A stretch of DNA of 64,000 bases from Datnioides undecimradiatus (taxonomy: Eukaryota > Chordata > Actinopteri > Lobotiformes > Datnioididae). The stretch is from positions 2,046,001-2,110,000 of the forward strand of contig WARS01000051.1 of NCBI GenBank assembly GCA_008933995.1, given 5' to 3'. The position numbers and the translations under genes were made by a program. The notes under the pieces were generated by a model. That model saw only the letters and a list, made by a program, of their open reading frames with translations. It had not been told where the DNA came from and did no database searches. Of the stretch, positions 22,355-40,139 are shown piece by piece; position 1 is the stretch's first letter; each line of letters opens with the position of its first letter.

Positions 22355-22441
22355 CTTCTTGGGTCTCTTTCTCCTCTGTCCCAGCCCGTTGAGGCGATCG
22401 CTGGGGTCCAGCCTGTAGTGGGAGTGGTTGTCCTCACTCAT
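22355..22441 (-). CDS. First coding exon of an unidentified protein-coding gene
   Basis: The minus strand reads an ATG at 22441 followed by 29 open codons that end exactly at a splice donor, AAG|GTAAATGA (GT at 22354/22353), so the exon ends in phase 0. The start context is GCCACAATGA, with A at -3. An in-frame TAA lies 11 codons upstream (22477 to 22475), so the ATG cannot be an internal codon of a longer exon frame. The peptide starts MSEDNHSHYR, continues through a DPSDRLNGLG stretch and ends in a basic QRRKRPKK tail. That tail could be a nuclear localisation signal or part of a nucleic-acid-binding protein. There is no signal peptide or membrane segment. I do not recognise the family and give no symbol. 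Later exons should lie at lower coordinates; none was found in this window, so the first intron is probably more than 20 kb. Confidence 0.6.
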
Positions 22442-22700
22442 TGTGGCTCCAAAGCTACCACTATCCCCCCCAGTTTATTCCTCCTCTATTTGTTTCTTCT
22501 CTCTATCCACTCGTCTCGTCTCTTTCCCCCCCTCCTCAGTGAAACGAAGCGAGCCGACCTCTCTCCTCTCTGGTCCTCACACTCTGGCTGCGTGGAGCGC
22601 CGAGCCGGGCGGAGAGGAGGCAGGGGGGAGTGGCCGGAGAGGGGAGGGGAGGGGTGGGGAGGAGAGACGAGGGAGGGGAGGGAGCAGAGAGGAGGGCGCA
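22442..22700 (-). other. Probable 5' UTR of the 22.4 kb minus-strand gene
   Basis: Read on the minus strand this is a CT-rich leader from 22700 down to about 22560. It then becomes purine-rich just before the ATG at 22441. It contains CpG-containing blocks (CGCCCGGCTCGGCGCTC around 22600) that are unusual in this CpG-poor window. No splice acceptor of convincing strength lies between it and the start codon, so leader and first coding segment are probably one exon. The transcription start cannot be fixed from sequence; no TATA box is seen, as expected for a CpG-type promoter. Confidence 0.4.
22641..22659 (+). other. G-quadruplex motif in the promoter/5' UTR
   Basis: Four runs of GGGG are separated by single A, A and T bases, the arrangement most favourable for a parallel quadruplex. 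The flanks (22622 to 22690) are also G-rich. The G-rich strand is the template strand of the minus-strand gene, so the structure could affect polymerase passage; the RNA itself would be C-rich and would not form it. Confidence 0.6.
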
Positions 22701-22707
22701 CAATGGT

Positions 22708-22721
22708 GTTGCTATGGCAGC
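22708..22721 (-). promoter_or_regulatory. RFX-type X-box at the presumed promoter
   Basis: GTTGCTATGGCAGC is a near-palindromic match to the RFX X-box consensus GTNRCCNNRGYAAC, with one change in each half. It lies about 265 bases upstream of the start codon, directly beside the GA-rich leader, where a proximal promoter element would be expected. RFX factors drive ciliary and some neuronal genes, but one motif does not assign this gene to either class. Confidence 0.4.
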
Positions 22722-22789
22722 AGCTGCCACCAGTGTTTATCTGAAAACCTTGCCGGGCGAACCAAAATAGTCGCCGCACGCGCATGAAC

Positions 22790-24111
22790 ACACACGCACA
22801 CACGTAAACACACTCGTGTGTATGTGTGAACTGCTGCTAGCTTTTAATTGTTATTCCTTTTACAACCGCCGTCAGAGCGAGCCAGAGCGGCGAGAAGGAA
22901 ACGCTGAGATGAATCAGTGTTGTGAGGGCGTTCAAAGTAACAGCGGCGCTCCTAAATGAAACCGGGACGGCAAAAATAAAAATATGAATGGAAACAAAAC
23001 AGTGTGTAGATCTGAACTGGGAACTGCAGACAATCATTAAGCTACCGAGAGATATTACAGACACTGCTGAATGAAGTAGTGCTGAGCAACTGGTTAGTTA
23101 AAAACAGGAACAATCGGAGGAACTCACTTTAACATACGAGGATACAAGGGTGTTTCATGTTCAATGACATGAACAGCAAAGCTCCTTTTTGATCTTTGTG
23201 TGATGGCAAACTGAACGCTGTGTGTGAACCTTGAAGACATTTCTCCGTTTGCTTGGATTTTCTTCTTCGTATAAACTAGACCACGTTATTTCCAGATCTA
23301 ATTCTAAATCTCCAACTGTCCAAACGGGGTAATTCAAGTCGTCTTTTAACCACAAAGCTGTTTTAAGTGTTTCACAATGCACAGGTTCACTGATCAGTGT
23401 TGGTTAAGTCTAATAAAATCCCACCCAAAAAGGAAGTGACTGTAATAATGATCTACTCTGGGAGCGTCTGACGAATACGATGACAATATTTGTTCATTGT
23501 GCTACAGAGCAACATTTGACACTGGTGCGCCCCCAGTTTCAGCTCTAACGTGCAAAATGTAGCCACGAAGTAACATGCGAACTTTAGGGTGATGTGAATT
23601 TGCAGGAACCAGCAGATTCAGAATGCGTGATGTGATTGCATTATTTCCATCAGTGCTTGGTCCTGTTGATTTCTCTTTTCAATTTCGTGATGATTGATGG
23701 CTTTATTCTCAGAAATGTGAGAAACACAATGTTTGGTATATTTCATTTTCGCATAAATAAGGTCAATTTGTTAACACTATTGCTGGCGAAGAGGAGAAAC
23801 CACGTTTGGAAGTGACTCCCGCGAATCTGGTGACATGTGATGATTGGATTTAAAAGACCGTGTGAGGACGTGCGAGGTGACACAGCAGAGCCTCATGTTA
23901 CATGTCTCCCCGCTCTGGTGTGAAACTGAAGCCAGCGTGTTTGGATGCTCCAGCTATAGATCGAGTCAATAAACTTCCACCCAGTGAGGATTACAGGCCC
24001 AGACGCGCACACGCGCACGCACACACATCAAATCCACACTGCCTTGTCAGTCTTTGTTGTCTGAAGGCAACCAGGTCTTAAATCCAAGTGTACCCACATA
24101 CACCCCTCCCT

Positions 24112-39245: not shown

Positions 39246-39823
39246 AATGCTATCACTTAGTTCATAATGTGTCTCCTTTCCCCAGCTCAATGCTCCAATG
39301 TTTTATAGCGCTTTTAATATAGTTTATATCATTTGATGTATTACATGGTCCATCAGCACTAATCATTTGTGGGTTGCAGTCCTCTCACAATGAGGCAGCG
39401 GCACCATTAAGATTTATATGAAGACCCCTGAGTCTGGTGTGGAGCAGAGTAACACTGTGCGTCTGACAGGCCGGTCTGCTGCAACAGGAGCTTCTCCAGA
39501 CACACTAACTCAATACAGCAGACGCACAGGCTCTGCCTCCGACCATGAGAGAAGGAGCCGCACAGAGAGGATAATCACAGCTGAGGACAAGACCAGCCCG
39601 TAAGCATCATATGTATGCCAAAAAGGTTTAAATCAGCTCGGACAGTGTTGCTAAACATCAGTTAACAGCAGTCACTGAGACCAATGTAAAGACCCGAACC
39701 AACAATGAACTGACAATCATCCTCTTCCTCTGACAAACTCTTAAATTAAACACCGCGTCCACCAAAAGGAGCCAAACCACATCAGACAAAGCAGACACAT
39801 GAGAAGCCGGGACAGGAAGTTAC

Positions 39824-39866
39824 CTACAGCGAGGCCTCTGGTCAGAACACATCCATGGGGACTTAC
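39824..39866 (-). other. Candidate recursive-splice (RS) site with 43-nt RS-exon
   Basis: On the minus strand a pyrimidine tract (39893 to 39869) ends in CAG at 39867 and is followed without any gap by a consensus donor GTAAGT (39866 to 39861). This is the zero-length exon junction AG|GTAAGT typical of recursive splicing. A CTAAT branch-point-like motif lies just upstream, around 39895. Another donor, TAG|GTAACT, follows 43 bases downstream (GT at 39823/39822), so the segment could also be included as a small RS-exon. Vertebrate RS sites are known to have such following exons, which usually carry stop codons and mark transcripts as aberrant when retained. Chance occurrence cannot be excluded without RNA data. 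Confidence 0.45.
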
Positions 39867-40139
39867 CTGGAAGAGAAAAGAGACAAGGGATGATTAGATT
39901 CAGGCTCCTGGATTCTGAGGCGGTGTAAATGACAAAAATACAGAAAACATTATCGCGCAAGCAGTTATATGAACAATGTATACTTTAAATAGCATCCTGA
40001 CGTCCTGAACATGAGCAGAGAGTTCATATCGTATTCAAGCCTGATCACACAGCCTCTCCACAAAGTGATTCAGACACATATTCCAGTGGCCGTGTCACAC
40101 TGATCACACACCTCTGTTTTAATGAACCCATGTAACGGC

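Follow-up and report, generated by a model that had tools for sequence, protein, structure and literature searches.

The stretch of DNA analysed here, the window, is 64 kb long (C8:2046001-2110000, C8 being the contig, in a 581-Mb genome) and carries on its minus strand part of a gene that, on sequence grounds, is ank2 (ankyrin-B). The gene was so assigned because its downstream exons match Ankyrin-2 best and an exon at 22.4 kb in the window resembles the canonical ANK2 first exon. In the 200 kb below the window, the minus strand holds ankyrin-repeat, ZU5 and giant-exon coding sequence, with the ZU5 exon matching Ankyrin-2 (7.5e-46) ahead of Ankyrin-3 (3.5e-40) and Ankyrin-1 (7.7e-35). The exon at 22.4 kb, which has a CpG-rich leader at ~22501-23051, shows 48% identity to a probe of the human ANK2 start (E only 0.20 when taken alone) and has the same QRRKRPKK end. 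Plus-strand exons near ank2, named by eye, resemble those of CaMKII and an arylsulfatase, in agreement with the human gene order, ANK2-CAMK2D-ARSJ. The identity of the gene came from this flanking DNA, the window alone being insufficient: tRNA and Rfam scans of the window gave no match, nor did Pfam on one frame of minus-strand bases 1-30000, a PDB search with a 29-aa peptide or a text search with an 11-letter piece of that peptide.

Beyond the window by 7.8 kb, in a CpG-rich stretch (2117051-2118101), lies a predicted upstream exon (the MASS exon) that joins exon 2 in frame; from here to the last exon-like segment, ank2 extends over ~168 kb. The intron between the predicted upstream exon and exon 2 measures 106,110 nt on the minus strand. 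Since it spans both the canonical first exon and the site described below (site A), the exon at 22.4 kb is an internal first exon. The sequence-only reading had postulated a minus-strand gene whose intron crosses the region, with the 22.4-kb exon as an internal promoter, and the ank2 gene model bears out both expectations. A similar exon, MASS...RQ, in a CpG-rich setting at the ank2 duplicate on contig C325 is probably the counterpart of the upstream exon, as judged by an alignment that is short and weak (score 21), with ends and start alike. Because an aconitase-like gene (plus strand, named by eye) occupies ~2126-2134 kb, ank2 is unlikely to extend much further upstream. A first exon starting MTTMLQ, as in human ANK2, was sought by pattern search and rejected, neither of its two matches lying upstream of exon 2; the MASS exon was found instead. 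Another first exon predicted for ank2, MGNAA(M/T)CKVCGSDK, is alike in both copies of the gene (C8:~2021005 and C325:11430137, both on the minus strand), and its start would suit N-myristoylation.

The earlier reading had also described, on the minus strand, a CTAAT, a pyrimidine tract and CAG running into GTAAGT with no exon between them and, 43 nt further, another donor that defines a recursive-splice (RS) exon; all of these elements are present as described (Table 1). At site A, CAG/GTAAGT (the slash marking the junction, here 39867/39866), acceptor touches donor, and the stretch from the branch-like A to the CAG is free of other AG dinucleotides. On an approximate splice matrix for vertebrates, acceptor and donor sum to 27.8 bits. 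The striking point is that the window's top acceptor and joint top donor coincide on one base. The donor that closes RS-exon A is unremarkable by itself, being one of 77 minus-strand donors in the window that score at least 6.88 bits.

Table 1 Features of site A, site B and the first exons of ank2 (window positions unless a contig is given).
Feature	Position	Strand	Remarks
Predicted upstream (MASS) exon, MASSPVTPASLEGETPSPTGNEEPATTRQ	C8:2117860-2117774	-	begins with ATG; phase 0, donor GTACGC
Branch-point-like CTAAT, site A	39893..39897	-	its A, at 39894, is base 28 counting back from the junction
Pyrimidine tract and CAG acceptor, site A	39867..39890	-	15.25 bits, best acceptor in the 64-kb window, both strands counted
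Recursive donor GTAAGT, site A	39861..39866	-	directly abuts the acceptor; 12.57 bits, highest on its strand and tied by one plus-strand donor in the window scan
RS-exon A, 43 nt	39824..39866	-	inclusion shifts the frame, stop in exon 2
Donor GTAACT at end of RS-exon A	39818..39823	-	TAG/GTAACT at 39824/39823; 6.88 bits
Canonical ank2 first exon, coding part, MSEDNHSHYRLDPSDRLNGLGQRRKRPKK	22355..22441	-	phase 0, then GTAAAT
Site B	C8:2041562	-	acceptor 13.2 bits; acceptor and donor sum 25.7
ank2 exon 2 start	C8:2011663	-	

A second site of the same type, site B, was located in the same intron and in the ank2 sense, 4.4 kb below the window start and 44 kb downstream of site A. Its sequence is cttttgtctctctgtccttgcag/GTAAGT (CAG/GTAAGT), with a CTAAC 31 nt ahead of the junction, and the donor that would close its RS-exon, 51 nt on, is weak (3.22 bits, against 4.05 for an alternative 47 nt on). 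Scores were also obtained for 18 acceptors of ank2 exons (median 8.8, maximum 12.7), and the acceptors of sites A and B both lie above every one of them; in this set some boundaries are approximate and two or three are probably misplaced. Together, the two sites split the upstream-promoter intron into 31,907, 44,304 and 29,899 nt, while the canonical-promoter intron of 56,691 nt is split by site B into 26,792 and 29,899 nt. On sequence evidence, site B strengthens a recursive-splicing reading of site A.

In random sequence of window composition (order 1 to 3), between 0 and 0.01 strict motifs are expected per 64-kb strand. An order-5 Markov model was built from 324 kb (C8:1846001-2170000), both strands included, and 25 Mb of sequence simulated from it held no site of at least 25.7 bits, the score of site B; a chance origin of site A was rejected, as nothing in this simulated sequence equalled it. 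In the 324 kb themselves, 74 AG/GT sites on both strands score at least 6 both as acceptor and as donor, and just two of these sum to more than 20 bits, namely sites A and B, both in the ank2 sense and in the same intron. As a separate observation, those two are the zero-length acceptor-donor pairs of at least 20 bits seen on both strands of the 324 kb, versus ~5.5 predicted by the order-5 rate, and selection against accidental pairs of this kind is a possible explanation of the deficit.

We propose that recursive splicing of the vertebrate type takes place at site A: ank2 transcripts started at the upstream promoter would lose their 106-kb first intron in stages, via sites A and B. We give this reading a probability of roughly 0.8. 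The predicted upstream exon would first be spliced to the CAG at 39867, and the resulting junction would rebuild CAG/GTAAGT, which would outcompete the weaker donor 43 nt on. On this proposal the rebuilt donor, in beating the RS-exon donor, splices onward to site B, 44 kb downstream, where a donor would be rebuilt once more before the final joining to exon 2. The 43-nt RS-exon would help to define site A and would normally be lost; a message that kept it would be frameshifted. Transcripts started at the internal promoter would use site B alone. Transcription of the upstream exon, use of both sites and the order of the steps are what we infer here. The rebuilt donors score 12.57 bits (12.1 with the canonical exon), versus 6.88 for RS-exon A and 3.22 for RS-exon B.

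The reading frames of the possible products were also followed. When the upstream exon, RS-exon A and exon 2 are joined, the frame is shifted and a stop falls within exon 2; when RS-exon B follows either the upstream or the canonical exon, an in-frame TAG is met at its end. An ordinary in-frame coding exon at site A was rejected, as a 43-nt exon breaks the frame. The signals in the sequence, the identity of the gene, the exon phases, these reading-frame outcomes and the existence of a second site are shown by the analysis. At both A and B, AG abuts GT, a strong acceptor is accompanied by a branch point and pyrimidine tract, the rebuilt donor exceeds that of the RS-exon, and inclusion of the RS-exon brings a premature stop; the sites lie in the sense orientation inside a long first intron (106,110 nt, given the predicted upstream exon).

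Across the genome (581 Mb), a strict motif, YYYNYYYYYNCAGGTAAGT, is not enriched, with 28 matches, A and B among them, versus 48 for a reversed-pattern control. In the 106-kb sense intron, 0.0026 strict matches are expected and two are found, with a pattern written after seeing both. A relaxed motif, whose pattern site B does not fit, gave 126 matches versus 259 for the control. No strict match lies within 200 kb upstream of the located CADM genes, a set that includes genes known to host RS in other species. Among the matches listed (100 of the 126, with two CADM loci on C493 and two weak rows left out of the comparison), 3 of 13 ankyrin, CADM and IgLON loci have a relaxed match in the sense orientation within 200 kb upstream, these being ank3 on C20, an IgLON gene on C290 and a CADM-like gene on C9. 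The expectation is 0.28 loci (P ~0.003), for a 200-kb limit picked after the matches had been seen and with the C20 site in a CT microsatellite, so that we treat the excess near these loci as a lead only. The IgLON match (C290:1402825, minus strand) lies 167 kb upstream of an IgLON exon, and the CADM-like match (C9:1486257, plus strand) 113 kb upstream of a CADM-like exon, both in the sense orientation.

A ZU5 search identified six ankyrin genes in the genome: an ank2 pair on C8 and C325, an ank3 pair on C20 and C337 (Ankyrin-3 best), and two others that are ank1-like by rank only. In the C325 duplicate of ank2, only ~18 kb separate the MASS exon from exon 2, an intron about six times shorter than its C8 equivalent. 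A scan of 30 kb there revealed no site comparable to A or B, the best on that strand scoring 19.0 bits, with GTCAGT. This duplicate carries exons of the MASS, MAHA and MGNAA types, but the canonical MSED first exon has no match there. The C20 ank3 copy has a sense recursive-type site (C20:750769, plus strand; 13.3 and 10.6 bits) in the CT microsatellite, 33.5 kb above exon 2 and with a donor of 7.41 bits 137 nt on; this candidate is weaker than the ank2 sites. It is conceivable, if doubtful, that recursive splicing of a long 5′ intron is a trait shared across the ank2 and ank3 lines of the ankyrin family, with a promoter-dependent ladder in ank2 (two steps for upstream-promoter transcripts, one for canonical-promoter transcripts and none for those from two further predicted downstream first exons) that was dropped in the short-intron duplicate.

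Two other readings of the ank2 sites were weighed. Some ank2 transcripts could include an unannotated exon, cassette or poison, that starts at site A and measures 43 nt or more, with GTAAGT as a latent donor silenced by the exon junction complex (EJC). EJC-repressed RS-exons exist (PMC6224609), 46 of 84 mouse AGGT candidates were reported to be unannotated exons (PMC8797253), and inclusion of the RS-exon does yield a stop. The donor balance points the other way, the rebuilt donor at 12.57 bits far exceeding the exon's own at 6.88 (3.22 at site B), whereas mouse RS-like cryptic exons are reported with the opposite balance (PMC8797253); a second site of the same build in the same intron also counts against an exon of this kind, which we regard as improbable. 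Less probable still is that A and B are inert decoys or look-alikes that arose as chance juxtapositions and undergo little or no splicing. This would be in keeping with the genome-wide counts of the strict motif (28 versus 48 in the control) and with the lack of a comparable site in the ank2 duplicate, but it has to accommodate two strict matches in an intron where 0.0026 were expected (the pattern having been written after seeing both), and scores that 25 Mb of simulated sequence did not reach for either site.

Recursive splicing from site A via site B would make the locus informative in two ways. With a two-site ank2 ladder beside a short-intron duplicate that lacks such a site, the genome would provide a natural experiment to test whether long introns explain recursive sites, and the ladder offers a promoter-resolved test of RS-exons as a quality switch. 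ANK2 is linked to heart and brain disease. Site A is real as a feature of the sequence and very probably functions in recursive splicing, its host being a paralogue of a known RS host, ANK3. RS has been reported in human ANK3 (PMC6110456), and mouse Ank3 is described as having five first exons within ~409 kb of exon 2 (PMC4449188). In the literature searched, no paper pairs ANK2 with recursive splicing, and ANK2 has no occurrence in the main text of PMC8797253.

Few RS sites are reported to have saw-tooth support: two human studies give nine and 16, the latter from 342 candidates with junction support, and mouse cortex gives 20 (PMC6110456, PMC8797253). The human set of PMC6110456 comprises 36,870 putative sites next to its 342 candidates. 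In mouse, RS is described as rare, with 19 RS sites among the 84 AGGT candidates versus the 46 unannotated exons (PMC8797253). Vertebrate hosts named in these reports include ANK3, CADM1/2, HS6ST3, NTM, PDE4D and LSAMP (PMC8797253, PMC6110456), and zebrafish cadm2a provides an RS precedent (PMC5126111). The ank2 intron resembles mouse RS sites, whose reported features include a long first intron, AGGTAAGT and a strong 3′ site; mouse RS genes are reported to exceed 294 kb (PMC8797253), a length that ank2 here, at ~168 kb, does not reach. A donor-competition model has been described for vertebrate RS (PMC5126111, PMC6110456, PMC6224609), with the rebuilt donor reported as the stronger in 67% of sites (PMC6110456), and the behaviour predicted for A and B fits this model. 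Vertebrate RS sites usually lie in the first or second intron of the host, and for most of them inclusion of the RS-exon brings a premature stop.

Sites A and B also share with Drosophila ratchet points (zero-nucleotide exons; consensus (Y)nNCAG/GTAAGT, PMC2773006) the same juxtaposition and the occurrence of several sites per long intron, but differ from them in lying in a vertebrate gene and in having a motif that lacks genome-wide enrichment here. The latter is in line with the report that large vertebrate introns, as a class, are not enriched for RP sites (PMC2773006). Like EJC-repressed annotated RS-exons such as that of KPNA1 (PMC6224609), the exon at site A begins with donor-like sequence; unlike those described there, its rebuilt donor is far stronger than its own, predicting removal and not inclusion. 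The closest likeness is to vertebrate RS sites with RS-exons, with which site A shares AG/GTAAGT, a strong pyrimidine tract, a long first intron, a short RS-exon with its own donor, a stop on inclusion and a stronger rebuilt donor. It is set apart from those reported by its host, ank2, by the presence of two sites in one 106-kb fish intron, and by several predicted first exons, such that the number of splicing steps would depend on the promoter.
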